Shown here: positions 1 to 22,646 of the stretch, one piece after another
How positions within the stretch are numbered: position 1 is the first letter of the stretch
Layout: every line of letters begins with the position of its first letter
Source: Myxococcales bacterium
GTDB taxonomy: Bacteria > Myxococcota_A > Polyangia > Fen-1088
Assembly: GCA_003170035.1 (NCBI GenBank)
Contig: PMZX01000293.1
Location: 11,794-34,462, forward strand
Direction of reading: 5' to 3'
DNA length: 22,669 bases
Notes under the pieces: generated by a model
The model's database searches: none
What the model saw: only the letters and a program-made list of their open reading frames with translations
What the model was told of the DNA's origin: nothing
Program-made: the position numbers and the translations under genes

Positions 1-1265
1 AGCTCGCGGTAGAGCGCCGCCATCCTCGGGGCTGCCACCTTGATGGAATACACCGCCGGGATTCCCTCGACGAGTTGCTCCCACAGACCAGGCGTGCCAG
101 CGGCTTTCCGAAAGCTGTCGGCCAGGCTGAGCGGATCGCGCACGCGGAAGTGCAGACCGTTCTTGCCGTGGGTGACCTTTTCGGCCATGCCACCGATGTC
201 GCTGGCGATAACCGGCCTGCCCGCAGCGAATGCCTCCTGGATCACCAGCGGCGCGTTCTCCCACCAGATCGAGGGCACCACGACCCAATCGACCTCCGCC
301 ATCAGCGCCGGTTGTTGCGTCGGAGTGTAGGGACCGGCGAAGCGCAGTCGGCAGTGCGAGTTTTGCGGGAAACGCTCGAGCGCTTCCCGCAGCCAGGGTT
401 GCCGGTCCACGCCCGCGCCGTGCACGGAGACCTCGATGGCCGTACCCTGCAGCGGCTTCGCAGCGATTGCTTCCAGCCCGTGCAGCAGGACGTCGAGGCC
501 CTTGAACGGGTCTGCCAGGTTGCCGAAGAACCCGAAGCGGTTGCGTGGTCCCGGGCGAGCAGGAACTTCAGCCGCGGGCAAGGCACGGCGGCCGTTGTCC
601 TCGTAGCTGATGCGCGCAGCAGGAATGCCCCAGGCCACGAAGCGCTCGCGCAGAAAGTGGCTGGGCGCCAGGAAGCGATCGACCACACCGAAGTGCGATT
701 GGATGAAGCACCGGCGCCGGAAGAAGTCGGCCGGCGAGCATTCGGGAAAGCAGCGGGCACAATCTGCGGGCGAGGCCGACTCGCACAGATCGTTGCCCGC
801 CGTGCGCACCATCTTGCCGTCGTGCAGGCAGATGGGCACGAATTCGTGGAGCGTGTACAGGATGGGGGCGGCCGGCAGCAGGCTGCGCGTGGCGCGCAGC
901 AGATCGAAGCCGAGCAGCAGAGTGTGCTGGAAGTGCACCACGTCGGGGCGAATGGCTTGCACAAGCTGCGTCCAGAGCGGCACCACGTGCTCTTTGTCGC
1001 GGATCACGTCGAGAAACGAATCCCACTGGGATTCATCGACGAAGAAGGCGAACTGGTTGGGGTCGCCTCCGATGCCGGCCCCGCGCTGCCCGTCGTGCGG
1101 GCTGCCGGCTCCCCGCGCGTGGTCTTGGGCACGGCAGATGAGAAAGGGCTCGAAGTCGTTCTGGCGACGGATCTCTTGGTACAGCTCCTGGGTGTAGATT
1201 TCCGTTCCCCCGGCGCTCCAGGCCGGATGGGCGTGACAGACCAGAAGTACGCGCGGCTTGCTCAT
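1..1265 (-). CDS. GT4-family glycosyltransferase, 3' end cut by window edge
   Basis: The minus-strand frame from the ATG at 1265 stays open to the left edge (421 codons), so the C-terminus is missing. It starts with a Rossmann-type strand and the G-G-T-E motif (MSKPRVLLVCHAH...AGGTEIYTQEL) of GT-B retaining glycosyltransferases. The C-terminal half has FGFFGNLADPFKGLDVLL and the nucleotide-sugar site with an E-x7-E pair (WENAPLVIQEAF, about residues 325-350) followed by AAGRPVIASDIGG. Enzymes of this family transfer a sugar from a nucleotide donor in the cytoplasm. The ATG overlaps the stop of the upstream 582-aa GT2 gene by 4 bp (ATGA), indicating translational coupling. With the ABC exporter upstream it probably builds an exported surface polysaccharide. 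Donor and acceptor cannot be told from the sequence. Confidence 0.88.
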   Translation of the reverse strand, partial: MSKPRVLLVCHAHPAWSAGGTEIYTQELYQEIRRQNDFEPFLICRAQDHARGAGSPHDGQRGAGIGGDPNQFAFFVDESQWDSFLDVIRDKEHVVPLWTQLVQAIRPDVVHFQHTLLLGFDLLRATRSLLPAAPILYTLHEFVPICLHDGKMVRTAGNDLCESASPADCARCFPECSPADFFRRRCFIQSHFGVVDRFLAPSHFLRERFVAWGIPAARISYEDNGRRALPAAEVPARPGPRNRFGFFGNLADPFKGLDVLLHGLEAIAAKPLQGTAIEVSVHGAGVDRQPWLREALERFPQNSHCRLRFAGPYTPTQQPALMAEVDWVVVPSIWWENAPLVIQEAFAAGRPVIASDIGGMAEKVTHGKNGLHFRVRDPLSLADSFRKAAGTPGLWEQLVEGIPAVYSIKVAAPRMAALYRE

Positions 1266-3010
1266 GCTTCGCGTTCCCCGTCTGCCGTCGCGGCGAATCG
1301 CCGCATCGCCTCGCGCATGCGGGCGGCCAGATCGCGGTCGCTGAGCCAGGAATCGTAGGCGGACAACAACCGCTCCCTCGGACGGAAGCGGCCGGCGAGA
1401 TGAAAGAGCGTGACCTCGGGCAGGACCCAATTGTGTCGTCCCGCCTCCAGCAGGCGCAGACACAGCTCGGCACCGGCGAAGTCGCCGCCAACGAAAGCTC
1501 CGAAGAAGCCTCCCACTTGCTCGAAGATCTCGCGACCGATCAGCAGGCATGCGCCCGCCACGACCGGCACGCGGCGTGCTCGGCTGGCCCCCGCGTCGCA
1601 CGACGAATTCCTGTTGGCGTGTAGGTCCACTCCGCGCTCGTCGAGCAACATGGGCCCGAGCGCACCCATGTCGGACTGCGAGCGCGCAAAGCGCTGCAGT
1701 GAGGACAACCAGCCGGGCGCCTGCGGGATCACGTCGGCGTGGAGAAACAGCAGGTCTCTGCCACGCGCCAGCCGGGCCCCGGCGTTGTTCGCCTCGGCCT
1801 GCCCCACGCCACCATCGATCGCCGCCAGACGGAAGGGCACTCGGTAGATGGCGAACAGATGGGGACACTGCCGGCGCAGGCGCGCAGCTTGCTCGGGCGA
1901 ATCGAGCAGGTAGAGCAGGTCGCTGACGGCGATCTCCGGATCGTCCGCGAACTGCGCCAGCTGCTCTTCAAGTCGCTCGATGCGCTCGTCAAGGGCCACC
2001 ACGATGGTCGCGGCCGGATCGCACGGCGGCTCGCCGAAGCTGTCGACCGACGAGATGCGTGCGGGATTGCGCGCCTGCAATTCGCGCAAGGCCGGATACA
2101 GGCAGCGTTCGACGAGCAGGCTGCTCGGCGATTCTATCCGCTGCGCGGACTCCAGCAGCCTCTGGCGCGCTCGCACCGGGTCGCACACCGGCTCGGGGCA
2201 AAGCGCCTCGATCCGTTCGCCGCCGGCGCTCGCCATCTCGAAGACCGATCCGGCATCCAGGCGGTCGGGGGCAGTGAAGAGCGCCATCCAGCCGTGGTTG
2301 CCCGCTGTCGGCTCGCCGAAGTGGCGGGCCACCTCGGGCAGGGGACAGCGGGTGAAGGTATCGTGCAGCTCGATGCGCAGGCCTTCGGCGGTCAACACGG
2401 CCGCTCGCCCTTCCAGCCCGCGCGCCCAGCCCGCGATGAAATACTGGCCCGGCTTCGCCTCGACCAGCGCATCCACATACGCGGCCAGTGGGGCAGCCGG
2501 GCTGTTGTCCCATCGGCGCGCAGGCAGGCGGAGCGCTTGGTGGATGCGCCGGGTGGCCTCGCTCCAGGCGGCGGTGCTCCCAGTTGCCGGCCGGCTAGCG
2601 CGGGCGATGAAGTCGGCTGCTTGCTTGCGTATCTCGGCATCCCAGGGCAGGGCCACCGCGCGCGCCCAGTCCGCCGGTGTCGCGGCCAGTTGCCCTATCC
2701 GCTCCAGGGAGATGGACAGGACCAGCGGGCCCACCTCGATGTCCAGCCAGCCCGATGAGTCAGGCGTGACCGGATAGACGACCAGAAGCTTGCCGCCGTT
2801 CTCGTCGCTCGTGGGCGAGTCGAGCCGCGGGTGCGCGAAAGCGTGCATGTCGACCGGCAATACCGTCTGGCCGCGTAGCCGGCCGACCAGTGGCTGCCCA
2901 GGCGACCGGGGGAACCAGCCCGAGAGCAGCAGGCAGTCGCCATGAACCCAGGTGACATACTCTATGTGGCCCGGCAGGGGGCTCGCAGTATTCGGGTCGG
3001 GGGCGCTCAT
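1262..3010 (-). CDS. GT2-family glycosyltransferase with two N-terminal accessory modules
   Basis: This 582-aa protein has its GT2 (GT-A fold) domain at about residues 334-545: ATIVVALDERI at 334-344, an N-x-G-A-R-x-A-R-G segment, the DxD-like LFLHADVIP (421-429), and the acceptor-site region VGGFFGAFVGGDFAGAELCLRLLEAG (499-524). Residues about 15-100 and 180-270 look like two related beta-rich modules (VTWVHGDCLLLSGWFP; GQYFIAGWARGLEGRAAVL). A similar module starts the 838-aa fusion glycosyltransferase at 8935, so it is probably an accessory domain used by this polysaccharide locus. No membrane segment is evident, so the enzyme is cytoplasmic or peripheral. It lies 49 bp after the ABC ATPase gene and overlaps the following GT4 gene by 4 bp. 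The second acidic residue of a classical DxD is replaced by V-I-P, so activity or metal binding may differ. Confidence 0.85.
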   Translation of the reverse strand: MSAPDPNTASPLPGHIEYVTWVHGDCLLLSGWFPRSPGQPLVGRLRGQTVLPVDMHAFAHPRLDSPTSDENGGKLLVVYPVTPDSSGWLDIEVGPLVLSISLERIGQLAATPADWARAVALPWDAEIRKQAADFIARASRPATGSTAAWSEATRRIHQALRLPARRWDNSPAAPLAAYVDALVEAKPGQYFIAGWARGLEGRAAVLTAEGLRIELHDTFTRCPLPEVARHFGEPTAGNHGWMALFTAPDRLDAGSVFEMASAGGERIEALCPEPVCDPVRARQRLLESAQRIESPSSLLVERCLYPALRELQARNPARISSVDSFGEPPCDPAATIVVALDERIERLEEQLAQFADDPEIAVSDLLYLLDSPEQAARLRRQCPHLFAIYRVPFRLAAIDGGVGQAEANNAGARLARGRDLLFLHADVIPQAPGWLSSLQRFARSQSDMGALGPMLLDERGVDLHANRNSSCDAGASRARRVPVVAGACLLIGREIFEQVGGFFGAFVGGDFAGAELCLRLLEAGRHNWVLPEVTLFHLAGRFRPRERLLSAYDSWLSDRDLAARMREAMRRFAATADGEREA

Positions 3011-3059: not shown

Positions 3060-3812
3060 TCAGCCCGCGGGTCTCTCCAGTGCCAGCAACTTGAGATAGG
3101 CCTGCACCACCTCGGGCCCTGTGCCCTCCAGCGCGATCTTCCCCGCGTCGAGCAGCAGGGCGCGGTTGCAGAAGGCCTGGATGGGGCGCGGATCGTGGCT
3201 GACCAGGACCACGGTGTGTCCTTGCGCCGCCAGTTCGCGGTAGCGTTCCTCGCAGCGTCGGCGGAATCCGATGTCACCCACCGCGAAGACTTCATCGATG
3301 ATCAGCACCTCGCACACGGCCTTGAAGGCCACAGAGTATGCCAGCCGCGAGGCCATGCCCGAGGAATAGTGCTTGAGCGGCAGGCCGGCAAAGCCTTCGA
3401 GCTCGGCAAACGCCAGGATCTCGTCCACCGCAGCCCAGGCCTCACGCCGCGACAGGCCCATGGCGATACCGAGTAGCATGATGTTGTCGATGGCGTTCAG
3501 TTCGGGGCTCCAGCCGATGCCCAGTTCCAGCACGGGCGTGATGGGGGCGTGGGCCCGGACAGTGCCACGCTCGGGCTGGTAGATGCCACTCAACAGCTTG
3601 AGCAGCGTGCTCTTGCCCGAGCCGTTACGGCCCATGATTCCCACGGTTTCCCCACGTCGCACGTCGAAACTGATGTCATCAAGGACCTGCAGCCGGCGGT
3701 AGCCGCGGGGACGCAACAGGCCGAACAGGTGCTCGCGGATGGTCTCGCGGCGCACTGTCGGGATGCGAAAGGACTTGCACAGCCCGCGGACCTCGATGAC
3801 GTTGGCGCCCAT
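3060..3812 (-). CDS. Polysaccharide ABC exporter ATPase (Wzt/KpsT-type)
   Basis: This 250-aa cytoplasmic ATPase powers export of a lipid-linked polysaccharide across the inner membrane. Visible motifs are Walker A GRNGSGKST (61-69), the family-typical signature HYSSGMASRLAYS (148-160), Walker B VLIIDE (169-174) followed by VFAVGD, and the switch histidine in VSHD (His206). An N-terminal stretch ahead of the nucleotide-binding core (RRETIREHLFGLL) is typical of the Wzt/TagH/KpsT group. The start is the ATG at 3812, which shares one base with the permease stop (TGATG). The frame stays open upstream to 4232, but that part only mirrors the permease gene. At 250 aa it lacks the C-terminal carbohydrate-binding domain of Wzt from O8/O9a-type systems, so export is probably not tied to recognition of a capped chain end. 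Confidence 0.93.
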   Translation of the reverse strand: MGANVIEVRGLCKSFRIPTVRRETIREHLFGLLRPRGYRRLQVLDDISFDVRRGETVGIMGRNGSGKSTLLKLLSGIYQPERGTVRAHAPITPVLELGIGWSPELNAIDNIMLLGIAMGLSRREAWAAVDEILAFAELEGFAGLPLKHYSSGMASRLAYSVAFKAVCEVLIIDEVFAVGDIGFRRRCEERYRELAAQGHTVVLVSHDPRPIQAFCNRALLLDAGKIALEGTGPEVVQAYLKLLALERPAG

Positions 3813-4597
3813 CACAGATTCTCCGCGGCCGAGGGGGCGTAGTGGCGGTAGAGCAGCAGTCCCGATAGGAAGATGGTCGCGGTGACCCCGGCGAGCATCG
3901 AGAAAGCCTTCAGGGTGGGCACGTGGTGTTCGACCAGAAGCTGGCGCGAGAACTGGATCACCGCGGTGGGCGGCCAGATGTACAGGTAGAAGTGGTACTT
4001 CTCGGGGATGATTCCCAGCGGGTAGACGACCGGGGCCACGAAGAACCCTGCCTGGACGATCACATCCCAGATCTGGTTCAGATCGCGGTAGCGCAGGAAC
4101 AGGACACTGGAGCCCAGCGAAAATCCGATCGTGATGACGATCATGGCCAGCAGGCACAGGCCAAACAGGCCCAGGGCGGCCAAGCTGGGCGAGCGGCCCG
4201 TCACCGACAACGCGATGACGATGGTCAGGCACACCACTGACAGCGTCATCAGCGCGTTCGAGGGCGAGGTGACCACCAGCAGCCAGCGCGGGAAGCGCGT
4301 CTTGCCCAGCAGGTAGCCCTTCACCGCCAGCGAAGTGACGCCCACACGGGTGGACTCCGAGAAGAAGTCGAACAAGAACAGACCGAGGAGCAGGTTGAAC
4401 GCGTAGTTCCGCTCCTGGGCGAAGATGAACGAGAACACGGTCATGAGGACCAGGAACATGGCCAGGGGCTTGAACAACGCCCAGAGGAAGCCCATCCAGG
4501 TTCCGTGGTAGCGCACCTTGAAGTCAGTGCGAACGAGCGTCCACAGCAGACCCAGCAGGTCGACACGAGCGATATCTTCAGTGGTCCTGATGCGCAT
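3812..4597 (-). CDS. Polysaccharide ABC exporter permease (Wzm/KpsM-type)
   Basis: This 261-aa integral membrane protein of the ABC-2 permease family would form the channel for polysaccharide export with the ATPase encoded next. The cytoplasmic N-terminus carries the usual LVRTDFKVRYHGTWMGFLWALFKP segment, followed by about six hydrophobic spans, the conserved LFLRYRDLNQIWDVIVQAGFFVAPVVYP loop, and a basic/amphipathic end. Length and layout match the Wzm/TagG/KpsM family. It is the first visible gene of a minus-strand operon (permease, ATPase, GT2, GT4). I see no strong Shine-Dalgarno sequence before the ATG at 4597. Beyond it lies decayed sequence, so the operon promoter is probably at about 4600-4680, although I cannot pick a convincing one. 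Confidence 0.92.
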   Translation of the reverse strand: MRIRTTEDIARVDLLGLLWTLVRTDFKVRYHGTWMGFLWALFKPLAMFLVLMTVFSFIFAQERNYAFNLLLGLFLFDFFSESTRVGVTSLAVKGYLLGKTRFPRWLLVVTSPSNALMTLSVVCLTIVIALSVTGRSPSLAALGLFGLCLLAMIVITIGFSLGSSVLFLRYRDLNQIWDVIVQAGFFVAPVVYPLGIIPEKYHFYLYIWPPTAVIQFSRQLLVEHHVPTLKAFSMLAGVTATIFLSGLLLYRHYAPSAAENL

Positions 4598-7721: not shown

Positions 7722-8935
7722 TCTCGGTGCGCTCCCTTCGCCTCCTGCACGTCACACCCTTCTACGGCGACGCCTGGGCCTATGGCGGCATCCCGCGCGC
7801 GGTGGCGGCGCTGGCGCGCGCCCAGAGCCGCCGCGGCCACCAGGTCACGGTGGCGACCACCGATGCGTGCTCGGCGGCGAGCCGCCTGCCTGTCGCAGCA
7901 GGCGACCCGATACGCGGCCCGCGCCGGGCGACACACGAGTTGCAGGGGCCCGAGGTGCGCGTGTTCGGAAACCTGTCGAACCGTCTGGTCCACCGCCTGC
8001 AGTTCCTGTTGCCGGTGGGCCTGCACAGCTTTCTGCGCGACGAGGTAGGCCGATTCGACGTGGCCCACCTGCACGCGGTCCACAACCTGCCAACCTCGCT
8101 GGCCGCGCATGCCTGCCTGCACGCGCGCGTGCCCTACTTGCTGCAGACGCACGGAACGGCACCGCTCATCGAGCGCCGGCGCCTGGCCAAGTGGGCCTTT
8201 GATCACACCCTGGGCCGCGGTGTCTTCGAGAATGCCGCGCGCTGGATCGCGATCAGCGACGCCGAACAACGCCAGCTGATCGAACTGGGCGCGCCGGCGG
8301 AGCGCATCCGGACTATTCCCTCGGCGCTGGATCTGGACGAACTCGACCTCATCCCGCGCGGCCAGCTCCGCGCGCGGCTGGGTCTGCGGGACGAGCCGCT
8401 GGTCGTGTACCTGGGCCAGCTCATTCCGCGCAAGCGGGTGGATGTGCTCATCCATGCCTTCGCGGCGCTGGCGCGGCCCGAGGCTCGGCTGGTGATCGTG
8501 GGACCGGACATGGGCAGTGGTGGCGAGCTGCGCGAGCTGGTGCAGCGCTGCCGCCTGAATGACACGGTGACTTTCCTGGATACCCTGGCAGGGCAGGCGC
8601 GGCTGGCTGCCCTGGCCGATGCCGATGTGGTGGCCTACGCGTCCGAGGACGAGGTTCTGGGCCTGGTGCCGCTGGAGGCGCTCCTGTGCGGCACACCGGT
8701 GGTGGTGGGCAACGATTGCGGCAGCGGCGAGACCATCGCCAAGGTGACCGGCGGCCGCGTGGTGCCGGTGGGTGATGCACCGGCGTTGGCCCGGGCGCTG
8801 GGCGAGATCCTGGACGCGCAGGCGCGCTGGCGGGGCGTGGCTTGCCAGGCGCAGCCAGCGGTGCGAACCGGTTTCGGCAGTGCCAGCGTGGCGGCGCGCC
8901 TTGATGACGTGTACTTCGAGGTGGTGTCGGCGTGA
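7718..8935 (+). CDS. GT4-family glycosyltransferase
   Basis: This protein is about 405 aa with the GT-B fold of family GT4. The N-terminal domain opens with LRLLHVTPFYGDAWAYGGIPRAV. The C-terminal domain begins at about residue 225 (EPLVVYLGQLIPRKRVDVLI) and carries the donor-site E-x7-E pair in DEVLGLVPLEALLCGTPVVVGNDCGSGE (about 310-340). It is a retaining cytoplasmic sugar transferase; the donor is unknown. The start is either TTG 7718, with GAGG (7705-7708) at good spacing and a 4-bp overlap with the ribbon-helix-helix stop, or GTG 7727, which gives the more usual N-terminus (VRSLRLLHVT). The TGA stop at 8933-8935 shares a base with the ATG of the next gene, so the two are coupled. Confidence 0.88.
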   Translation: MISVRSLRLLHVTPFYGDAWAYGGIPRAVAALARAQSRRGHQVTVATTDACSAASRLPVAAGDPIRGPRRATHELQGPEVRVFGNLSNRLVHRLQFLLPVGLHSFLRDEVGRFDVAHLHAVHNLPTSLAAHACLHARVPYLLQTHGTAPLIERRRLAKWAFDHTLGRGVFENAARWIAISDAEQRQLIELGAPAERIRTIPSALDLDELDLIPRGQLRARLGLRDEPLVVYLGQLIPRKRVDVLIHAFAALARPEARLVIVGPDMGSGGELRELVQRCRLNDTVTFLDTLAGQARLAALADADVVAYASEDEVLGLVPLEALLCGTPVVVGNDCGSGETIAKVTGGRVVPVGDAPALARALGEILDAQARWRGVACQAQPAVRTGFGSASVAARLDDVYFEVVSA

Positions 8936-11451
8936 TGGGAAAATGCTCCATCGACGGTGCCGGGGATCTGGAAGGCTGGCTCGACCAGCCTACGCCGGAC
9001 GAAGTCGTCAGCGGGGACTCGCTGCTGGTACGCGGCTGGGTGTTCGACGCGCGGTCGGAGGTGCGCGCGGTCCTGGTCCGTGCCCGCGGCCGCGAGACGG
9101 CGCTCACCTGCCGGCCGGCACGACCCGACGTGGCCTTTGACTACCCCGAGCAGAAACAGGCCGGCTGCTGCGGTTTCGAGGGGCGCATCCCGGTGCGGCC
9201 CGGGGCCATGCGCATCGAGGTGTTGGCGGTTCTTGACGGCGGGCGACGCGAACGCTGCTTTGCACATTCGGTGATCGTGCGGCGAGCGAACAAGAGAGTT
9301 CCTCTGGCGGCCTTCTTGTGGAGTGCCGTTCGCAAGGCCTTCCGTGCGTGGCGAGAAGGCCGGCTGGCACTGTCCCCAAGACAATGGCTTCGCTTGCTGC
9401 GGGCGCTCCGTCGCGAGATGCGGGAGAACACCGCGGGGGATGCGGCTGCGCTTCCCGCGGGCGCGCGCGCCGGCCTGGAGCTTCAGCATGCTGAACTGCT
9501 TCGCGATTTCCTGGCCAGTGGTGCCCGGCTGGATCTGACCCCGGCCGGGCAACCCGAGGTCAGCGCCCTGGTGGTGCTCTACAACCGGGCCGAGCTGACC
9601 TTGCGCTGCTTGCGCGCCCTGGCCGAGATCCGCTCGCCACTCGTCGAGGTCGTGCTGGTCGACAACGCCTCCTCGGATGAAACCGCCCGGCTGCTCGATC
9701 GCATCGACGGCGCCACCATCCTGCCCAACCAGGAGAACCTGGGCTTTCTGCGCGCCACCAACCAGGCCGCGGCGGCGGCGCAGGGGCGCGTGCTGCTTCT
9801 GCTCAACAACGACGCCGAGCTTCTGCCCGGCAGCTTGGCCGCGGCCCTGCGCACCCTCGATTCGTCGCCCTCGATCGGCGCCGTGGGCGGTCGTCTGATC
9901 GCGCCCGACGGATCTTTGCAGGAGGCCGGGAGCATCATCTGGAAGGACGGCTCGTGCCTGGGCTACGGTCGCGGCGGCAAGCCGCGCGATCCGCAGTACA
10001 TGTTCGAGCGCGACGTGGACTTTTGCTCGGCGGCTTTGCTGCTCACCCCGCGCGCGCTATGGAACCAGATGGGCGGCTTCGATACCGATTTCGCGCCCGC
10101 GTACTACGAGGACGCCGACTACTGCGTGCGCTTGTGGAAATCGGGCCGGCGCGTGGTGTTGCAGCCGCGCACGGCGGCCCTGCACTTCGAATTCGCCAGT
10201 TCGCCCTCGCGAGCGAGAGCCATCGCCCAGCAGGCCGAGCGGCGCCAGATCTTCCTGCGCAAGCACCGCGACTGGCTGGCACAGCAGCCGGCCGCGCATC
10301 TCGCGCGTGCTCATCACGCTCGCACCCACCGGCCTGGGCCGCGCATCCTGGTGCTGGACGATGGCGTGCCGCAGGTTGCCCGGGGCAGCGGACAGCCCCG
10401 ATCGCTCGAGCTTCTGACCGCTCTCGTGCGGCTGGGCTGGCTGCCGACCCTGGTTCCGCTGTCCTATCCCGACGACGACGACCCGCACGCCGAGTTGCCG
10501 CACACGATGGAGGTACTCACCGGCGTGGGTGCCCGGGGCTTGTTCCGACTGCTGGAGGAGCGGCGCGGCCTCTATTCCTGCGTGCTGGCCAGCCGGCCGC
10601 ACAACATGGTCCGCCTGAATTCCGCCTGCGCACGCCTGCGCAAGCCTCTGGATGTCCCCATCATCTACGACGCCGAGGCCATCTTTGCCGACCGAGAACT
10701 CGCGGGCCGTCGCATGCGCGGCGAGAAAATTAGAACGGACGAGGGTGAGCGGCAGCGTTCCGCCGAACTGGCGCTGGCGCGGCAAACTCAGGCGGTGCTG
10801 GCCGTCTCTGCCCGCGACGCCGCGATATTTTCCGACGCAGGCGCCCCCCACACCTTCACTCTCGGGCATCGCGTGGATTGCAGGCCCACGCGCCAGCCGT
10901 TCAGCGAGCGCAGCGGCCTGCTCTTCGTGGGGGCTCTCGACGAAGAAGGCAGTCCCAACGTGGATTCGGCGTGCTGGTTCGTACGCGAGGTGCTGCCCAA
11001 ACTGCGCGCCAGGCTGGGCATGAACGTGACTGTCGATCTGGTGGGCGCCACCACCTTGCCGGCGGTGCTCGACCTGGCCTCGCCAAGCGTGCGCGTGCTC
11101 GGCCAGGTGGAAGATTTGACTGAGTTCTACGGCCGGGCCCGCGTCTTCATCGCGCCCACGCGCTTTGCCGCGGGCATTCCCTACAAGGTGCACCACGCGG
11201 CTGCGCACGGTCTGCCCGTGGTGGCGACATCGTTGCTGGCAGGCCAGCTCGGCTGGCAGTCGGAGCGCGAGCTGCTGAGCGCCGACGACGCAGATTCCTT
11301 TGCCGAAGCCTGCGCGCGCCTCTATTCCGATCCCGAATTGTGGCAGCGCTTGCGTTCGGCCGCACTGGATCGCGTCGCGCAGGACTGCTCAGAGGCCAGC
11401 TTCGATGCCGCACTCGCCGACGCGCTCGACGCCGTGGTTCGCGCACGGTAG
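8935..11451 (+). CDS. Bifunctional GT2-GT4 glycosyltransferase fusion with N-terminal accessory module
   Basis: This 838-aa protein has three parts. Residues about 1-110 form a beta-rich module (DEVVSGDSLLVRGWVFD...) like those in the 582-aa glycosyltransferase at 1262-3010. Residues about 208-440 form a GT2 domain with SALVVLYNR, VDNASSDET, the DxD-type LNNDAEL (about 291-297) and GGFDTDFAPAYYEDADYCVRLWKSG (from about 380). Residues about 468-838 form a GT4-like GT-B domain (PRILVLDDGVP...GLLFVGALDEEGSPN...GIPYKVHHAAAHGLPVVATSLLAG). Two transfer reactions on one chain suggest building a repeating unit. The ATG at 8935 overlaps the previous stop (TGATG) with GAGGTGG upstream; a GTG three bases earlier is also possible. 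The TAG stop is the first three bases of a palindromic repeat copy. Confidence 0.86.
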   Translation: MGKCSIDGAGDLEGWLDQPTPDEVVSGDSLLVRGWVFDARSEVRAVLVRARGRETALTCRPARPDVAFDYPEQKQAGCCGFEGRIPVRPGAMRIEVLAVLDGGRRERCFAHSVIVRRANKRVPLAAFLWSAVRKAFRAWREGRLALSPRQWLRLLRALRREMRENTAGDAAALPAGARAGLELQHAELLRDFLASGARLDLTPAGQPEVSALVVLYNRAELTLRCLRALAEIRSPLVEVVLVDNASSDETARLLDRIDGATILPNQENLGFLRATNQAAAAAQGRVLLLLNNDAELLPGSLAAALRTLDSSPSIGAVGGRLIAPDGSLQEAGSIIWKDGSCLGYGRGGKPRDPQYMFERDVDFCSAALLLTPRALWNQMGGFDTDFAPAYYEDADYCVRLWKSGRRVVLQPRTAALHFEFASSPSRARAIAQQAERRQIFLRKHRDWLAQQPAAHLARAHHARTHRPGPRILVLDDGVPQVARGSGQPRSLELLTALVRLGWLPTLVPLSYPDDDDPHAELPHTMEVLTGVGARGLFRLLEERRGLYSCVLASRPHNMVRLNSACARLRKPLDVPIIYDAEAIFADRELAGRRMRGEKIRTDEGERQRSAELALARQTQAVLAVSARDAAIFSDAGAPHTFTLGHRVDCRPTRQPFSERSGLLFVGALDEEGSPNVDSACWFVREVLPKLRARLGMNVTVDLVGATTLPAVLDLASPSVRVLGQVEDLTEFYGRARVFIAPTRFAAGIPYKVHHAAAHGLPVVATSLLAGQLGWQSERELLSADDADSFAEACARLYSDPELWQRLRSAALDRVAQDCSEASFDAALADALDAVVRAR

Positions 11452-11519: not shown

Positions 11520-12452
11520 CACGAAACGTGATGCAGGCGCGGCGCGGGCGCCAAAACGGCCGGCGCAGTAGTCGCGCAGGCCGCTGGCCAGGGCGCGTGC
11601 GCCTGCCAGGCGTGGCACCTTCGAATGCAAGGTCACGTACGCCAGATTCAGCGCCATGACGTGGGCCGCGCGCAGGGCGGAGAGCGGCGCGGGCAGCGGG
11701 CGCGCGCGCCGCGCAAGCAAGAGGTGGTTGCGGGCCGCAAAGTAAATGCGATCAGGTGAGTCGGGCGCCAGGCTGGCGCCCCCCTGGTGCAGCACGCGGG
11801 CGGCAGGGGCGCACAAGGCAAGGAAACCGGCGCTCCTTGCCCGCAGGCAGAAATCCAGATCCTCGAAGCCGAAGAAGTATTCCTCGGGCAGCAGGCCCAC
11901 GACGTCGAAGACCTCACGACGGATCATGAGGGCGCAGCCACTTAGCGCGTCCACGAGGTGCGCCGGACTGCTGGCTGCCGGCACCAGCTTGCCCCAGCCG
12001 GAAAGTCGCATTCGTCCCGTGAGCGGCCTGTAGGCGATCCCGGTCGATTCGAGCGTGGCTGGGTCGCGGGCAGAAACGATGGCAGGCCCAACCAGCCCTA
12101 CGCCCGGCTGGTCCAGGGCACTTTCCAGAATGCCCAAGCAATCAGGCTCGACGAGTGCGTCGCTGTTGATCAGAAGCACGCGGCTGGCGCCCACATCCAG
12201 GACGCGCCGGATACCCAGGTCGGCGCCGCCGGCGAAACCCAGGTTGCGCGGCGTCTCGATCCAGTCCAACGGTGCCAGCCTGTCCCGCAGGCCTTGGTCC
12301 CCCGATCCATTGTCCACCACCACCAGATGGTCGGCGATCCGCCGCGAGCCCCGGAGCGCGGCCACGCAAGCCGCGGTCTGGCCGGGCGTGCCAAAGTGCA
12401 CGACCACGGCCGCCAGCCGGTGGCGGTCACAGGGCTGGGCATCGCGGCTCAC
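11517..12452 (-). CDS. GT2-family glycosyltransferase (rhamnosyltransferase-like)
   Basis: This 311-aa single-domain GT-A protein has LAAVVVHFGTPGQT (13-26), VVVDNGSGD (44-52), RNLGFAGGADLGIR (69-82), the DxD-like LLINSDALVEPD (93-104), an SGCALMIRREVF segment (171-182) and the acidic EEYFFGFEDLDFCLRARSAGF (190-210). This pattern is common in rhamnosyl-type GT2 enzymes of O-antigen loci, but the donor is not proven. The start is GTG at 12450-12452. The gene is convergent with the 838-aa fusion glycosyltransferase, and its last residues (SRFV) and stop fall within the palindromic repeat and its flank, so the repeat may have replaced the original C-terminus. Confidence 0.87.
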   Translation of the reverse strand: MSRDAQPCDRHRLAAVVVHFGTPGQTAACVAALRGSRRIADHLVVVDNGSGDQGLRDRLAPLDWIETPRNLGFAGGADLGIRRVLDVGASRVLLINSDALVEPDCLGILESALDQPGVGLVGPAIVSARDPATLESTGIAYRPLTGRMRLSGWGKLVPAASSPAHLVDALSGCALMIRREVFDVVGLLPEEYFFGFEDLDFCLRARSAGFLALCAPAARVLHQGGASLAPDSPDRIYFAARNHLLLARRARPLPAPLSALRAAHVMALNLAYVTLHSKVPRLAGARALASGLRDYCAGRFGARAAPASRFV

Positions 12453-12652
12453 GGCTTCATCGTATCAGAGCCAGGCCTGGACCCACATCTCGCCACACGG
12501 GGCTCAGGACCGGGGCTTGCGCGATGGGCGGCGGCGAGAATTCCCCCGCGTGAACCGTCGGTGTTCCGACATCAGTGTTGTCTACCCGCTGACGGGCCGC
12601 CGTCTTCTCTGTTCGCATCCACTCGTAATCACCCGGCTTCTTCGCTGGCCCG

Positions 12653-12666
12653 GGGGTTGCAACCCC
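12653..12666. promoter_or_regulatory. Perfect 14-bp palindrome upstream of the lipoprotein gene
   Basis: GGGGTTGCAACCCC is a perfect palindrome about 50 bp before the lipoprotein start, within the 264-bp gap 12453-12716. It could be an operator for a dimeric regulator. There is no second copy to support it and I see no convincing -10/-35 pair beside it. Confidence 0.25.
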
Positions 12667-12716
12667 TGTTGAGCGTGATGCTGACAGCAACGACAAACGA
12701 TTCGAGGAGGAATGTC

Positions 12717-14414
12717 ATGAAGACGCTGGCGTGTTTGCCCCTTTTTGCAATTGGAGCCGCGTTGTTCACGCTGTCGCTGTGTGGCTGCTCGGAACGCAGG
12801 GACGGCCCAAGCCTTGGTGGCGCAGAGGTGAAGGTGTACGCAATCAACGCAGCCGACGTCTACTCGGTCACGGTCACCATCACCGCGGATGACATAGCGG
12901 ATCCCATCGTCGTTCCGCTGACCAAGGTCGGGGACCAGTGGGTCGCCAACCTCAGCGGGATCCCGGCGGGAACAAATCGCACATTCACCCTCTCCGCCCG
13001 CGACGCTTCGGATACGGAGATCTACAGTGGCGTGGCCACCGGGGTGACGATCACCGCCGACCAGACGGCTTCGGTGTCAATCGGCGGCCAGGAGACGAAT
13101 CCGCCCCCCGCGAGCGGCAACGCATCGCCGGTGATCGACGCCCTGGTTGCGTCGTCGATAGCTGTGGTCCCGGGAGCGACGGTCACCCTGTCGGTGAACG
13201 CCCATGACCCGGATGCGGGCGACACGCTCGCATATCTGTGGACGTCACCCAGCGGGACGTTCGACACCTCGAACACAGCGTCGACCACCTGGACAGCGCC
13301 CGAGACGGCCGGGACATACCGGATCACGGTGCGGGTTCAGGACAATCACCAGGCGCAGACGACGATGTCCGTCGACATCACGGTCCGTGCGGAGAGTGAT
13401 GCCGGCACCACCGCGACGATCACGGTCACCCTCAACAACTCGCCCGTGGTGAGCGAAGTGACCTCGACCAAAGGTCGGATCGGCGTTGGTGATACGACCA
13501 CGCTGGATTGCGCGGCAACCGACGATGACAGCGACACGCTGACCTATGCTTGGACCGCGGACAGCGGTTGTGCCGGAACGTTCAGTGCGTCGAACGTCAA
13601 GAGCCCGACGTTCACGCTGGGCAACACTTTGCCATCGTCCGGCGCGTGCCAGTTCTCGGTGACCGTGTCCGATGGCCGCGGTGGTACCGGCACAGGGTCG
13701 CTGACCATCACCGCCTCTGCTCCTCCGCCGGTCAACGTGGCGCCGCAGATCGAGGGCTCCAGCCAGTCCGCCGCGTCTGCTGTGGCCGGCCAGGCGGTGA
13801 CCCTGTGGGTCCTGGCGTCCGATCCGGAAGGTACCGCAGTGACCTTCGCGTGGAGCGCGGCCAGTGGCACGTTCGCAACGCCGGTCGACTTGAGCGCCGG
13901 AAGCCAGCAGGTAGTCTGGACTGCGCCGCTCAACTTCGTGGGTGATATCCAGGTCCAGGTGACGGTCACCGACGCGGGGAACGCGTCGACGGTGAAGAGC
14001 TTCACCATCGCAAAGACTCAGCCTCCCTCGGGCGAGGGCGGGTGGACTGCCGACCCGAGCTACTACGGCTCCGGCGACGGCTGTGATTGCGGCCACGGCT
14101 CCTGGGATCCGGATTGCGCCATTCCAGGTCAAGTGCTGCACAACTGCAACAACGGGCAAGCCTGCGTTCAGTCCGGTCAGCTGGGCGTCTGCCAGACCGT
14201 GGTGACGCCCGCAATGCCCGACCCCGCGCCGCCTTCCACGCCGCCAGCGGGATGGACCTGTGACCCGAGTTACTACAACGCCGGCGACGGCTGCGACTGC
14301 GGGTGCGGCGCCTTCGATCCGGACTGTGGAAGGCCGAATCAGAGGGGGTTCGATTGCAATGTGGGGCAATACTGCGGGCAATCAGGCACCTGCGAGAGCC
14401 TGCCCAGCCAGTAG
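12717..14414 (+). CDS. Surface lipoprotein with Ig/PKD-like modules and two Cys-rich C-terminal repeats
   Basis: The start is the ATG at 12717, preceded by a strong GAGGAGG at 12704-12710; the long open frame upstream of it is antisense to the GT2 gene. The 565-aa product has a lipoprotein signal with lipobox L21-C-G-C24. A beta-rich module follows (about 36-123), then three cadherin/PKD-like modules (about 137-223, 241-333, 341-433) with motifs such as NAHDPDAGDTLAYLWTSPSG, ATDDDSDTLTYAWTADSG and ASDPEGTAVTFAWSAASG. Two Cys-rich repeats end it (442-492 and 511-560) with the pattern W-x-x-D-P-S-Y-Y-x(2)-G-D-G-C-D-C-G-x-G-x(2)-D-P-D-C...G-Q-x-C-x(2)-S-G-x(2,3)-C. The first repeat has A-D where the second has C-D and H where the second has C, so it has lost two cysteines. 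It is probably anchored in the outer membrane as an adhesin or matrix protein. The ligand is unknown. Confidence 0.82.
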   Translation: MKTLACLPLFAIGAALFTLSLCGCSERRDGPSLGGAEVKVYAINAADVYSVTVTITADDIADPIVVPLTKVGDQWVANLSGIPAGTNRTFTLSARDASDTEIYSGVATGVTITADQTASVSIGGQETNPPPASGNASPVIDALVASSIAVVPGATVTLSVNAHDPDAGDTLAYLWTSPSGTFDTSNTASTTWTAPETAGTYRITVRVQDNHQAQTTMSVDITVRAESDAGTTATITVTLNNSPVVSEVTSTKGRIGVGDTTTLDCAATDDDSDTLTYAWTADSGCAGTFSASNVKSPTFTLGNTLPSSGACQFSVTVSDGRGGTGTGSLTITASAPPPVNVAPQIEGSSQSAASAVAGQAVTLWVLASDPEGTAVTFAWSAASGTFATPVDLSAGSQQVVWTAPLNFVGDIQVQVTVTDAGNASTVKSFTIAKTQPPSGEGGWTADPSYYGSGDGCDCGHGSWDPDCAIPGQVLHNCNNGQACVQSGQLGVCQTVVTPAMPDPAPPSTPPAGWTCDPSYYNAGDGCDCGCGAFDPDCGRPNQRGFDCNVGQYCGQSGTCESLPSQ

Positions 14415-19384: not shown

Positions 19385-19582
19385 CTAGGTGGCAATTTCA
19401 GTGCCGCAGAGCCGGCAGAGTGCCGATGTACCAGCACCGCCTGCTGTGGCTGTCTTGCAGGTGCCCAGGACGGCCTCTTCCGGCCTGAGCTTGATGCTCG
19501 TGAGTCTGGGCGGTGCATAGGGCTTCTTGCACCCTGGCTCGGTCGATGTCGTTGCTGTCTTGCTGTTTTCACTATCTTGCAC
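19385..19582 (-). CDS. Cys-containing RiPP precursor-like peptide, 65 aa
   Basis: The start is GTG at 19580-19582, preceded at 6 bp by a perfect GGAGGAG. The ribosome site and start lie inside the last codons of the radical SAM gene (11-bp overlap), which suggests translational coupling. The 65-aa product has an acidic/Thr-rich N-terminus, then KPYAPPRLTSIKLRPEEAVL (20-39), containing Y22-x-x-P25-x-L27. That fits the Y-x-x-P-x-L leader motif bound by PqqD-like recognition proteins in lasso and related systems. The tail (40-65) is Gly/Thr/Ala-rich with Cys42, Cys56 and Cys59 (C-R-L-C) and ends G-T-E-I-A-T; Cys18 is in the leader. The tail probably is the modified core. An in-frame ATG at 19597 would add five residues but overlaps the ribosome site. 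Neither the modification nor the cleavage site can be read from the sequence. Confidence 0.78.
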   Translation of the reverse strand: MQDSENSKTATTSTEPGCKKPYAPPRLTSIKLRPEEAVLGTCKTATAGGAGTSALCRLCGTEIAT

Positions 19583-20717
19583 TGATATCTCCTCCATGAA
19601 TCTGCAGACAGTACTGGCACTCCCCATGGGGTTTCGCCTCGACGCCCAGGGCGCGCGCCCGCAGGTGAGCCACCTCGCAGTAGAAGGCAGCCGGAGTCTC
19701 CGGGTCGCCGTGTTCCAGCTCTCCGTTGGGCGGACACGACCCGCATAGGTGCCGGACCGAACAGCCCAGGCACTTGGTCGCACGCGAGACCTTCCTGCTC
19801 CGCTCGGCCAGAAGAGCGCCCTCCCAGCCGTCCTTGAAGCTTCCGCCGCGCAGATCGTACTTGCCCCCGGGCGAGAACAGGCACAGGTTCATGCCGCCGT
19901 ACGCGTCGATGCCAAAGCCATTGATGCCGGCCTTGCAGTAGTAGAGTTCCTGCTTGGGATGCAGCGCCGGGAAACAGCCGCCGAACTCGCGCGCCAGATC
20001 CTTCCACCCGGCGGCCTGCTTGGGGTCGCTCATTTCCAGATCCACCACCGTGCGGGCGGGAACCCGGAAAGAAAGCGGCCGCTGCGAGAAGTCGAGACGA
20101 GGGGTGACCATGGGATCGATCCTGAAGTTCAGCCCCAGATCCTTCTCCACCAGATCCTTCATCTGTTCGATCTCGTGCTGGTTGAGGGTCAGCACGATGG
20201 TCTTGAGGCTGATCTGGATCTTGCGCTCGCAGAGCAGGCGGACCGCTCGCATGCACTTGTCGTAGGAACCCGGCACCCGGGTGACGCTCTCGTGGGTTTC
20301 ACGGGTGCTGCCATAGATCGTGATCTCGACCGCGTAGGGGCGCCAGGTGGCCAGGTGGTCGGCAATCCGCGGGGTGATGAGCGTGCCGCTGGTGAACAGG
20401 ATGACGAGCAGCCCCTTCTTCTTCGCGTGGGTGTAGATGTCGAGGAAGTCCCCGCGCCCGAAGATCTCGCCCCCGGTATAGGTGAGCCACAGGCAGCCTG
20501 CCTCGGCGAGCTCGTCGATGATGCGGATATGCTCCGCGGTGGCGAGTTCCCGGCGGGCGTTCTCTTCGTCGCGCAGCGGGAGGTTGTTGTAGCAGTGCAC
20601 GCAGTTAAGCGGGCAGCGTCGGGTGACCTCGATCATCCCGTAGCCGGGCAGACGCTTGCTGGACCAGACGTCCCGGACTTTGGTGTGGAAGTCGCGGTAT
20701 GAGATGCTTTCGATCAT
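19572..20717 (-). CDS. Radical SAM/SPASM peptide-modifying enzyme
   Basis: This 381-aa enzyme has the radical SAM cluster motif CPLNCVHC (Cys35, 39, 42) after EVTRR, and the SAM-binding TGGE (81-84). The C-terminal SPASM region has Cys261 and Cys279 (YYCKAGINGFGIDAYGGMNLC), Cys316/319/325/328 (CLGCSVRHLCGSC) and Cys347, ligands for two auxiliary Fe-S clusters. An extra C-x-x-C (367-370) lies close to the C-terminus. SPASM enzymes of this length usually form C-C or thioether bonds in ribosomal peptides. The start chosen is ATG 20717 with GGGAGGG about 12 bp upstream; a longer open frame to 21524 would run through the divergent kinase gene. The overlapping peptide gene is the obvious substrate. 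The cytoplasmic reaction and the bond formed are inferred. Confidence 0.88.
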   Translation of the reverse strand: MIESISYRDFHTKVRDVWSSKRLPGYGMIEVTRRCPLNCVHCYNNLPLRDEENARRELATAEHIRIIDELAEAGCLWLTYTGGEIFGRGDFLDIYTHAKKKGLLVILFTSGTLITPRIADHLATWRPYAVEITIYGSTRETHESVTRVPGSYDKCMRAVRLLCERKIQISLKTIVLTLNQHEIEQMKDLVEKDLGLNFRIDPMVTPRLDFSQRPLSFRVPARTVVDLEMSDPKQAAGWKDLAREFGGCFPALHPKQELYYCKAGINGFGIDAYGGMNLCLFSPGGKYDLRGGSFKDGWEGALLAERSRKVSRATKCLGCSVRHLCGSCPPNGELEHGDPETPAAFYCEVAHLRARALGVEAKPHGECQYCLQIHGGDISAR

Positions 20718-20750
20718 TGGCTTGGGGTCTACCCTCCCTGACGCGTGACG

Positions 20751-20781
20751 AAAATACCCAGGTAACCGTTGAGTGTAGCAA
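20751..20781 (-). promoter_or_regulatory. Candidate promoter for the radical SAM-peptide(-C25) unit
   Basis: On the minus strand TTGCTA (20781-20776) and TATTTT (20756-20751) are separated by 19 bases, wider than the preferred 17. They lie about 34 bp upstream of the radical SAM start. Confidence 0.3.
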
Positions 20782-20791
20782 TACTCCGCGT

Positions 20792-20805
20792 CGCCAGGTA
20801 TGGCG
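20792..20805. promoter_or_regulatory. Inverted repeat between the divergent promoters
   Basis: CGCCA-GGTA-TGGCG lies between the two candidate promoters of the divergent peptide-cluster operons. It is a possible shared operator. The arms are short (5 bp), so chance cannot be excluded. Confidence 0.25.
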
Positions 20806-20815
20806 CTCCTGGGGT

Positions 20816-20843
20816 TTGAAAACCGACCCATAGGCGCTATCCT
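20816..20843 (+). promoter_or_regulatory. Candidate sigma70-type promoter for the kinase-PqqD-S26 operon
   Basis: TTGAAA (20816-20821) and TATCCT (20838-20843) are separated by 16 bases. This would start transcription at about 20850, some 27 bp before the GTG of the kinase-like gene. It is the best promoter-like pair I see in the 159-bp divergent gap. Confidence 0.45.
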
Positions 20844-20876
20844 GCAACGAGCCATGGCCTTTCCTGGTAGCCCGTC

Positions 20877-21833
20877 GTGATTGCCCGTTGCGACAAAGAA
20901 GCTGCGCCTCTCCGGATTGACCGTCGGTGGTTCCAGATCGGCGGAATCACCATCCAGGTCGAAGCCGATCGGCCCATCACGTCGCAGACCTTCGCGCCCA
21001 AGTTCGAGGCCTTCGAGGTCAATGGCCCGGGCAGCGACACCATCTTCATCCACCACCGTTTTGGCCTCCCTGACCTGCAGGGCCGTGACCTGGGCCGCCA
21101 GGTTTACCGGAGAACGCCGTGGGCGGTTTTCGAGAGGCCGGATGCGTGGCTCTACTTGGGCATCGCGAAGGATCCCGACGATGCACGACTCTTCACCTTC
21201 GCCGAGTTCGACCGGGAACACAGCCGAGGCACCATCTGGAGCCCCACCGACGACAAGTTCATGCAAGGGCGCCTGGATTCCCTGACCATGTTCCCCACCG
21301 ATCAGGTTCTGCTCGCGCGCGTGCTGGCCGACCGCCGGGCGTGCTATCTGCACTCGTGCGCCGTGATCGTCGAAGGCGCGGGCCTGCTGTTTCTCGGCCA
21401 TTCTGGGGCGGGCAAATCCACCATTGCGGGGATGCTCGACGGGCGCGCCCAGATCCTGTGCGACGACCGCAACATCGTGCGCCGCTGGCCGGATGGGTTC
21501 CGGGTCCACGGCACGTGGAGCCACGGCGAGATCCCGCGCGTGTCAGCGACCTCGGCGCCCCTAGCCGCGATCCTGCTGCTGACCAAGGCCGAGGAGAATC
21601 GCCTAGTGAAGGTGGCGGATCGCGTGCGCCTCGCGAGCACGCTGGCAGCGTGTATGATCAAGCCGGTGGTGGACGCGGGCTGGTGGGAGAAGAGTCTGGA
21701 CCTGATTGAAACCATGATTAACGAGATCCCCTGCTACGAGATGCGATTTGACAAGAGCGGCGCGATCGTGCCCGCGCTGCTCGAACTGGCGCGCAGTTTT
21801 CCGCCGACCAACCGAATAGAGCCGAGCCGATGA
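20877..21833 (+). CDS. HPr-kinase/phosphorylase-related P-loop protein of a RiPP-type cluster
   Basis: This 318-aa protein has the P-loop GHSGAGKST (174-182) after LHSCAVIVEGAGLLFL, a CDDRNIVRR segment (195-203) in the Walker B position, and VHGTWSHGE (210-218), which matches the H-G-T-x-W-H-G-E phrase of HprK-related proteins in RiPP clusters. About 155 N-terminal residues precede the kinase fold; their role is unknown. HprK-like kinases in some lasso peptide clusters phosphorylate the C-terminal residue of the precursor; here the peptide ends in Ala-Thr, so the same is possible but unproven. The only start in frame is GTG 20877, just after an in-frame TAG at 20868. The stop overlaps the PqqD gene by 4 bp. 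It is divergent from the radical SAM gene. Confidence 0.8.
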   Translation: MIARCDKEAAPLRIDRRWFQIGGITIQVEADRPITSQTFAPKFEAFEVNGPGSDTIFIHHRFGLPDLQGRDLGRQVYRRTPWAVFERPDAWLYLGIAKDPDDARLFTFAEFDREHSRGTIWSPTDDKFMQGRLDSLTMFPTDQVLLARVLADRRACYLHSCAVIVEGAGLLFLGHSGAGKSTIAGMLDGRAQILCDDRNIVRRWPDGFRVHGTWSHGEIPRVSATSAPLAAILLLTKAEENRLVKVADRVRLASTLAACMIKPVVDAGWWEKSLDLIETMINEIPCYEMRFDKSGAIVPALLELARSFPPTNRIEPSR

Positions 21834-22132
21834 GCCCATCCGTAGATCCCGACGTGCGGGTCCGCCATTCGGACGACGTCGTCGCGCGGCTGATCGAGGG
21901 CCAGCTCCTCATCGTTCCGTTGGTTTCCGGCGTGGGCGATCTGGAGGACGAGCTGTACACGCTCAACGAAACCGGCCGGGCGATCTGGGAGAAGCTGGAC
22001 GGCAACCGAACCATCGACGAGGTGGCCCGCGAGATGGCGCGCGAGTTCGACGTCGCTGAAGAAGCCGTCCGGCTGGACGTCATCAACCTGGTGGAAGACT
22101 TGTTGGGAAGGAAGATCCTGGTTGCCGGTTGA
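21830..22132 (+). CDS. PqqD-like RiPP recognition element protein
   Basis: This 100-aa PqqD-family protein has beta strands with VRVRHSDDVVARLIEGQLLIVPL, the conserved ELYTLNETGRAIWEKLDGNRTIDEVA segment (41-66) and a helical end with FDVAEEAVRLDVINLVEDLL. Such proteins form a three-helix/three-strand winged fold that binds the leader of a precursor peptide and presents it to modifying enzymes. Here the likely ligand is the Y-x-x-P-x-L motif of the peptide encoded at 19385-19582, and the likely partner is the radical SAM enzyme. The ATG overlaps the kinase stop (ATGA) and the stop overlaps the next gene by 11 bp, so the three proteins are made together. It stands alone and is not fused to the radical SAM enzyme. 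Confidence 0.88.
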   Translation: MSPSVDPDVRVRHSDDVVARLIEGQLLIVPLVSGVGDLEDELYTLNETGRAIWEKLDGNRTIDEVAREMAREFDVAEEAVRLDVINLVEDLLGRKILVAG

Positions 22133-22646
22133 CGGCGCGCCCCCTGATTCACATCTCGCCACCGGCGATGTCCTGGAGATCTCCGGGGAACAGCTAGAAG
22201 AGTTGCTGATTGCGGTTCTTTCCCAGGGCCGCCCGCTGCGCTTCCGGGCGCGCGGGTTCAGCATGGGCCCGCTGATCCAGGACCGCGACGCGATCACCAT
22301 CTCGCCGTTCGCCGGCCGGACGCCCAGCACCGGGGACATCATCGCCTGCCGTCATCCGCAGAGCCGGCGCCCGGTCGTCCATCGCGTGCGTGCGGTCAGG
22401 GACGACGGATTTCTGGTTCAGGGTGACAGCGCGCCCCTGCCCGACGGACTGATCCCGCTTGGCGATGTGCTCGGCCTGCTCGCTGTTGTCGAGCGCGACG
22501 GCGTGGTGGTGTATCGGGCGCGAGGCCACCGTCCCGCGGCCATCCGCCATTTGGCCTGGATCGTCTGGCGGTGGAGGAACCGCGCTGCCGGTGTGGCCCA
22601 TCGCCTGAAGCAGCGGCTGTTCTCGCCCGGTCTTCGTGACGGCTGA
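22122..22646 (+). CDS. S26-type signal-peptidase-like serine protease, soluble form
   Basis: This 174-aa protein has the catalytic-serine box R-G-F-S47-M-G-P-L, then RDAITISPF, GDIIAC, the H-R box PVVH87RVR and FLVQGDS (97-103), in the order seen in S26 signal peptidases. His87 stands where bacterial LepB has Lys, so it resembles the Ser-His (archaeal/ER, SEC11) type. No N-terminal membrane anchor precedes the serine, unlike LepB, so it is cytoplasmic or peripheral. The C-terminus (AIRHLAWIVWRWRN) may touch the membrane. The start is TTG 22122 with GGAAGGAAG at good spacing; no other start lies before the serine box. In this operon it is a candidate leader peptidase for the small peptide. A palindromic repeat begins 3 bp after its stop. 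Confidence 0.75.
   Translation: MPVDGAPPDSHLATGDVLEISGEQLEELLIAVLSQGRPLRFRARGFSMGPLIQDRDAITISPFAGRTPSTGDIIACRHPQSRRPVVHRVRAVRDDGFLVQGDSAPLPDGLIPLGDVLGLLAVVERDGVVVYRARGHRPAAIRHLAWIVWRWRNRAAGVAHRLKQRLFSPGLRDG

Follow-up and report, generated by a model that had tools for sequence, protein, structure and literature searches.

Two described peptide systems come close to the locus reported here. Linear polyphosphorylated peptides (LPP), a 2026 family known from the lpp cluster of Paenibacillus alginolyticus, were discovered via an archaeal-type signal peptidase and are stated to be restricted to Bacillota; according to sections of that report, LppS and LppB together cleave the leader, and the kinase LppK phosphorylates an internal serine (S3), not the C-terminus (PMC13381572). 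In paeninodin-type lasso peptides, the kinases PadeK and ThcoK phosphorylate a conserved C-terminal serine, as described in sections of PMC9266682. We analyzed a 22,669-nucleotide stretch of DNA (the window) from a Myxococcales bacterium (assembly GCA_003170035.1, contig PMZX01000293.1, positions 11,794 to 34,462), which carries a predicted cassette for a ribosomally synthesized and post-translationally modified peptide (RiPP) at its right end. Our best reading of the sequence is a radical-SAM branch of phosphorylated, type I signal peptidase (SpI)-processed RiPPs that are not lasso peptides. We assign a probability of roughly 0.68 to the full reading, in which a PqqD protein binds the leader, a radical SAM enzyme introduces cross-links, the C-terminal Ser/Thr is phosphorylated, an S26-like peptidase removes the leader and, in the window and a large sub-branch, the product partners with a C25 protease.

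The leader of the 65-residue precursor contains KKPYAPPRLTSIKLRPEEA and precedes a predicted core, VLGTCKTATAGGAGTSALCRLCGTEIAT, with three cysteines and a C-terminal threonine. Homologous precursors share the consensus KPYxxPx[LIV]xx[VI]xLRPEEAVLGxCK, followed by a variable core rich in Gly, Ser, Thr and Ala; judged by this motif, the leader is of the lasso type. By register with LppA, cleavage would probably occur between Ala and Val (EEA/VLG). The short open reading frame (ORF) gave no match in Pfam or NCBIfam family scans, as might be expected of a chance reading frame that is not a gene, but conservation refutes that explanation almost beyond doubt: 229 proteins match the peptide at E-values up to 1, and homologues sit at the same position of the cassette. 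All 71 precursors collected from the loci described below terminate in Ser (66) or Thr (5), against a Ser+Thr background of 17% at the other positions of their last 20 residues. The profile match ended before the C-terminus in 43 of the 71, so the terminal Ser/Thr was not imposed by the search. Among the 120 of the 229 homologues that were listed, one of them the window peptide, the last residue is Ser in 110, Thr in nine and Asp in one. Core cysteines number three in 57 of the 71 locus precursors, two in one, four in two and five in 11, and the distance from the leader Tyr/Trp to the first Cys is 20 residues in 59, 21 in 11 and 19 in one.

When GTDB contigs were scanned with the radical SAM sequence as query, seven relatives were retrieved, four of which (labelled Acidobacteria, Nitrospiraceae, Desulfobacterales and Omnitrophota) carry the PqqD protein, radical SAM enzyme, small Cys peptide, HprK-like protein and S26-like protein together. 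A precursor profile built from 53 peptides was then used for genome searches, in which all tallies are lower bounds. It matched at least 7 of 282 genomes in the window's phylum (E up to 0.01), at least 45 of 295 in the phylum of the Nitrospiraceae record and at least 12 of 297 in that of the Desulfobacterales record (both E up to 0.001). One match in the window's phylum (G022, E 0.0017) contains an in-frame stop and was left out. Two of the seven relatives (L009 and L010) come from genomes that gave no match in this precursor search, and L011 lay outside it. Flanks were taken from 6 of the 7, 37 of the 45 and 12 of the 12 genomes and combined with the relatives L005 and L008, the Nitrospiraceae record (L006) being dropped as a duplicate of L129, to give 62 loci. 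At 52 of these, all four partners lie within about 8 kb of the precursor, including three loci (L130, L142 and L154) at which one partner each scored 40 or less. Of the ten remaining loci, five are truncated at contig ends, two (L051 and L055) have no S26 gene detectable within range, and three have the precursor away from the cassette. L135, L159 and L160 were considered as counter-examples with a precursor and no nearby cassette, and were rejected on finding the cassette elsewhere in the same genome: G372 holds a full cassette at L139, and in G683 the genes for the kinase, PqqD, S26 and the radical SAM enzyme share a contig with the L159 precursor, 12–18 kb away from it. The count starts from the precursor and is therefore blind to cassettes that have lost it.

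The usual gene order is PqqD, radical SAM, precursor, HprK and S26. In the window's phylum, the HprK profile matches at least 134 of 282 genomes, mostly weakly; matches better than 1e-40 occur in exactly the six genomes that bear the precursor, with G022 left out. Judged from these neighbourhoods, the recurrence of the five genes beside a homologous small peptide exceeds chance. The five-gene set proposed in the earlier note, which had been made from the letters of the window, is thus real and conserved; it was incomplete, as the C25 gene belongs to the set at the window. An outcome it had named as refuting, relatives with the radical SAM/PqqD pair but no small peptide, was not found in this precursor-led count.

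The catalytic residues expected of each maturation enzyme can be read from the alignments. The radical SAM protein matches Radical_SAM (PF04055, E 3.3e-17), with a CX3CX2C motif at 36/40/43 and SPASM-type cysteines at 262, 280, 317, 320, 326, 329 and 348. In aligned relatives, the radical SAM triad and Cys 262/280/317/320/326 are 100% conserved and Cys348 81%. In fold comparison, the protein groups among SuiB, anSME, SkfB and 5wgg, the last of which we take to be CteB. Its short C-terminal tail holds two extra cysteines, 368 and 371 (CQYC). The PqqD protein exceeds the Pfam cut-off (PF05402, E 2.3e-16), its structural matches are PqqD, TbiB1 and the lasso RiPP recognition element (RRE), and Asn46 and Asp83, 37 positions apart, are each conserved in 97% of aligned rows. 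The HprK-like protein shows the HprK/PEPCK fold, its match to Hpr_kinase_C (E 5e-4) falling below the Pfam cut-off. Its His159, P-loop Lys180, Asp196 and Asp197 correspond to the His-Lys-Asp-Asp catalytic set of HprK-type RiPP kinases given in sections of PMC9266682, equated by residue type rather than by alignment to PadeK. Over 64 aligned rows, the His and Lys are 100% and the first Asp 98% conserved; the second acidic position is Asp in 41 rows and Glu in 23. The 120 relatives listed for the HprK-like protein bear the precomputed Pfam accession PF27840, which the local Pfam scan did not return for the window protein. The S26-like protein falls below the cut-offs for Peptidase_S24 (E 2.2e-3) and NCBIfam sigpep_I_arch (33.9 bits, E 2.6e-8, cut-off 51.85) and has no strongly hydrophobic span. 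The Ser-His pair noted earlier is confirmed and extends to a triad, Ser47, His87 and Asp102, conserved at 100, 98 and 100% over 61 aligned rows.

In two genomes, the radical SAM and HprK-like domains are fused into one ORF (L008, 5576-7726; L184, 6813-8825, in G683), a sign that both act together. The S26-like domain is followed in one ORF by a GNAT acetyltransferase domain at L005 (4363-5658) and by a weak methyltransferase match at L006 (2433-3566), so extra tailoring is possible. A defence system was rejected as a candidate: PADLOC likened the radical SAM protein to viperin-type proteins, matched the kinase by its P-loop and returned nothing for the other three.

From the protein families involved, we infer the following order of events. 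The PqqD protein would bind the KPYxxPxL leader of the precursor, and the radical SAM/SPASM enzyme would introduce cross-links, most likely thioethers, into the Cys-rich core. The HprK-like kinase would phosphorylate the C-terminal Ser/Thr on its hydroxyl, as PadeK and ThcoK do on paeninodin-type lasso precursors. The S26-like Ser-His-Asp peptidase would then cut off the leader, probably at EEA/VLG, while the RRE presents the substrate. A product resembling a small redox cofactor, made by excising a few cross-linked residues as in PqqA/PqqE/PqqD or mycofactocin, is very improbable: patterning extends across the entire core, usually with three Cys and Ser/Thr at the C-terminus, the cassette encodes a kinase and a leader-type peptidase, and Tyr makes up just 0.6% of the cores of the listed homologues.

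Some observations weigh against this reading. LppK targets S3, which means that the phosphosite cannot be assigned from kinase homology alone. Two divergent cassettes (L169 and L170), with kinase, RRE, radical SAM, S26 and C25 genes side by side and the C25 gene after S26, gave no match to the precursor profile and carry another small peptide, WETPR..W.G.IQTLAYQCSSGPAPVSGS.TEGCPP, which ends in Pro though the kinase adjoins it. The listed relative P0033 has Asp as its last residue, the 71 locus precursors are related by descent and hence not 71 independent events, and SPASM Cys329, invariant in seven sequences, is missing from the larger set's columns with at least 80% conservation. The action of LppK (sections of PMC13381572) and the Pro-ending peptides suggest an alternative in which the kinase modifies an internal core Ser/Thr, and the C-terminal Ser/Thr is kept, for example, so that the radical SAM enzyme or a transporter can recognize the peptide. 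We consider this unlikely: Ser/Thr is invariant at the very end of the locus precursors despite a freely varying core length, paeninodin-type kinases use a C-terminal site (sections of PMC9266682), and Gly occupies Tyr+18, the equivalent of the LPP phosphosite, in 104 of the 120 listed homologues. C-terminal phosphorylation accordingly remains our preferred assignment. Three further divergent cassettes with kinase, RRE, radical SAM and S26 genes were seen at L053, L057 and L059; candidate peptides end in Ser at L053 and in Thr at L059, and L057 shows no clear candidate.

A gene for a giant Peptidase_C25 protein, presumably gingipain-like, starts 41 bp past the precursor gene on the same strand. 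With 273 bits, its PF01364 match exceeds the cut-off of 23. The C25 domain is C-terminal (residues 1254-1591) and contains MGHA and MTCW, which we take to be the active-site motifs; the protein also has repeats, and with an N-terminus that looks like a signal peptide by eye it is apparently secreted. C25 proteins form a neighbour family (F4) at 15 of the 62 loci, and a PF01364 search confirmed the domain at all 15, in frames of 1149 to 2967 residues. The gene precedes pqqD at 12 loci, lies between hprK and S26 at two, and follows the precursor in the window. We searched 24 genomes for C25, namely all 15 C25-linked genomes and nine others with the cassette. The linked gene is the sole C25 gene in 13 of the 15, the window's included, with further copies in G267 and G283; of the nine others, eight lack C25, and G394 has it on another contig. 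In the phylum of L006, a full C25 domain (E below 1e-50) occurs in at least 27 of 295 genomes, and the precursor is present in 14 of these 27 versus 31 of the 268 others. All 13 genomes with such a domain in a frame of at least 1300 residues have the precursor (Fisher p 5e-12), and all are linked, in G473 across two contig ends; this 'long' class was chosen after seeing the list, making the test post hoc, and the Fisher tests on C25 ignore relatedness. G305, G422 and G577 have long frames with partial, weak C25 matches and no precursor.

It is possible, if doubtful, that the C25 protein is a mere neighbour inherited with the cassette and functionally unconnected to the peptide. Descent can keep neighbours together, and several counts run in this direction and thus against a partnership: no C25 gene was seen at 47 of the 62 loci (L124 being cut where it would lie), 13 of the 27 full-domain genomes in the L006 phylum lack the precursor, and in the window's phylum, where C25 (E up to 1e-20) occurs in at least 58 of 282 genomes including all six cassette genomes, it adjoins the cassette in just two of the six. 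Many genomes have C25 and no precursor. Mere inheritance fits less well with the four arrangements of the gene (the three listed above and, in the divergent cassette, a place after S26) and with its sole-copy status in most linked genomes. On a C25 tree, the linked label requires at least five changes, which makes the association look functional rather than a single frozen neighbourhood; L116 and L149 are badly placed fragments on this tree, some 'unlinked' rows lie on short contigs, and the label is uncertain for L172, L173 and L174, which stop at contig ends.

Gene linkage thus points to a partnership, in which the mature phosphopeptide of the window and of a large sub-branch would act with the neighbouring giant C25 protease, for example as inhibitor, activator or substrate. 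More specifically, and only tentatively, the product may be a RiPP dedicated to partnering a protease: cross-linked by the radical SAM enzyme and phosphorylated at its C-terminus, it would regulate its cognate giant C25 protease at the cell surface as an inhibitor, an activator or a docking factor. We know of no RiPP with such a role. The recurrence of the cassette in several bacterial phyla, often beside a giant C25 protease, hints at an undescribed peptide–protease partnership, and the pairing could offer such peptides a concrete physiological target.

The window features are collected in Table 1. Minus-strand radical SAM/SPASM, precursor and C25 genes diverge from plus-strand HprK-like, PqqD and S26-like genes, with overlaps of 11 bp (radical SAM/precursor), 4 bp (HprK-like/PqqD) and 11 bp (PqqD/S26-like). 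The five overlapped genes in two divergent units lie exactly where the earlier note had placed them; it had overlooked that the right window edge is a contig end. The contig stops 23 bp past the S26-like gene, so the region downstream of S26 is outside view.

Table 1. Features of the RiPP cassette and its C25 neighbour in the window.
Feature	Coordinates	Strand	Basis
Precursor peptide, 65 aa	19385..19582	-	GTG start after GGAGGAG; alternative upstream ATG at 19597 would give 70 aa
Radical SAM/SPASM peptide maturase, 382 aa	19572..20720	-	Radical_SAM PF04055 match, conserved Cys, fold
HprK-like kinase, 318 aa	20877..21833	+	Catalytic residues, HprK/PEPCK fold; HprK families below cut-off
PqqD-family RRE (leader-binding protein), 100 aa	21830..22132	+	PF05402, RRE structures
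S26-like (archaeal-type signal peptidase-like) leader peptidase, 174 aa	22122..22646	+	Conserved Ser/His/Asp; families below cut-off
Giant Peptidase_C25 protein, 1592 aa	14565..19343	-	C-terminal C25 domain (E 6e-81) and linkage to cassette
Divergent intergenic region, 156 bp; probable two-way promoter serving both units	20721..20876		Coordinates of flanking genes

Elsewhere in the window lie two glycosyltransferase genes, an ABC ATPase gene and a gene for a PKD/Big-domain protein (3-1967(-), 8908-11448(+), 3063-4523(-) and 11946-14411(+)), and the window looks like a region for cell-surface polysaccharide and adhesin. The only exporter-type gene seen in it is an ABC_tran gene about 15 kb away; the relatives L008 and L118 are adjoined by ABC_membrane and ABC_tran proteins. 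Several relatives share neighbour families in which the members scanned proved to be Wzz-type, Wzy-type and polysaccharide-export proteins. Within the L006 phylum, one sub-branch (L130-L147) has three radical SAM genes, and its scanned representatives have NTP_transf_5, methyltransferase, extracytoplasmic function (ECF) sigma and RskA-type anti-sigma genes nearby. Among 11 unassigned proteins of cluster F0 that were scanned, eight are NTP_transf_5 and three methyltransferases. NTP_transf_5 (PF14907) is found at eight relatives' loci and was not seen in the window, whose contig ends after S26.

Several described systems share parts of this gene set. SynChlorMet (NCBIfam ScmC-ScmF) likewise combines radical SAM/SPASM, PqqD and HprK-like types, and membership was rejected, as all scores fall below the cut-offs (28/125 bits for ScmC, 32/100 for ScmD, 84/400 for ScmE and 61/400 for ScmF); the same is true of nine relatives, scanned with an E-value limit of 1e-12. 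The sactipeptide/ranthipeptide maturases SkfB (6efn) and 5wgg have a similar radical SAM fold, and thioether formation is the chemistry predicted here. We know of no HprK kinase partner in the SkfB/CteB systems. With paeninodin-type lasso peptides, the locus shares the HprK-like kinase, the RRE and a conserved C-terminal residue, there a Ser phosphosite and here Ser/Thr (sections of PMC9266682), but the window genes include a radical SAM enzyme, and no macrolactam cyclase or B2 protease was seen alongside. In the window's own 76.88% complete assembly, where the right flank lies past the contig end, Asn_synthase matches occur exclusively on other contigs and Transglut_core3, the lasso B2 protease family, has none, on which grounds a lasso peptide was ruled out. 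The earlier assignment to a RiPP class other than lasso peptides is upheld by this result and by the retention of the small peptide; the kinase's likely target and the Bacillota LPP precedent were not part of it. A literature search, with most subscription journals outside its coverage, found nothing naming this system among the papers listed, and the word 'kinase' does not occur in the available text of the RRE-Finder paper (PMC7470986) or of a 2025 RRE paper (PMC12710340).

The likeness to LPP, as described in sections of PMC13381572, is the broadest. Both have a SpI-like Ser-His-Asp leader peptidase, a discrete RRE, an HprK-like kinase and a [Y/W]xxP leader, with no lasso cyclase needed; polysaccharide genes lie nearby. 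The LPP core cluster also includes an NTP transferase (PF14907) and an MsbA-like exporter, and relatives of the window system carry an NTP_transf_5 gene. An Asn and an Asp are 37 positions apart in the window RRE (46/83) as in LppB (Asn33/Asp70), an equivalence drawn by spacing alone, and the His-to-Asp spacing is 15 in the S26-like protein versus 25 in LppS, compared without direct alignment. In contrast, the word 'radical' is absent from the main text of PMC13381572, and five of its sections make no mention of a C25 protease. The LPP precursor motif YxxPxVLxHQxIxFETxxS was compared and is not found in the window family, which sets the system apart: YxxPx[LIV] is common to both, the leader tail is FET in LPP, with S3 as the phosphosite, and EEA here, and the window family continues as L[RV][PA]EEAVLGxC. 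Its hosts span phyla beyond Bacillota. The precursor family is new to Pfam and NCBIfam scans, and a phosphate on its last residue is an easily checked prediction. If the reading is right, LPP-family logic, with its RRE, HprK-like kinase and signal-peptidase-like leader protease, would extend beyond Bacillota and be joined to radical SAM chemistry.

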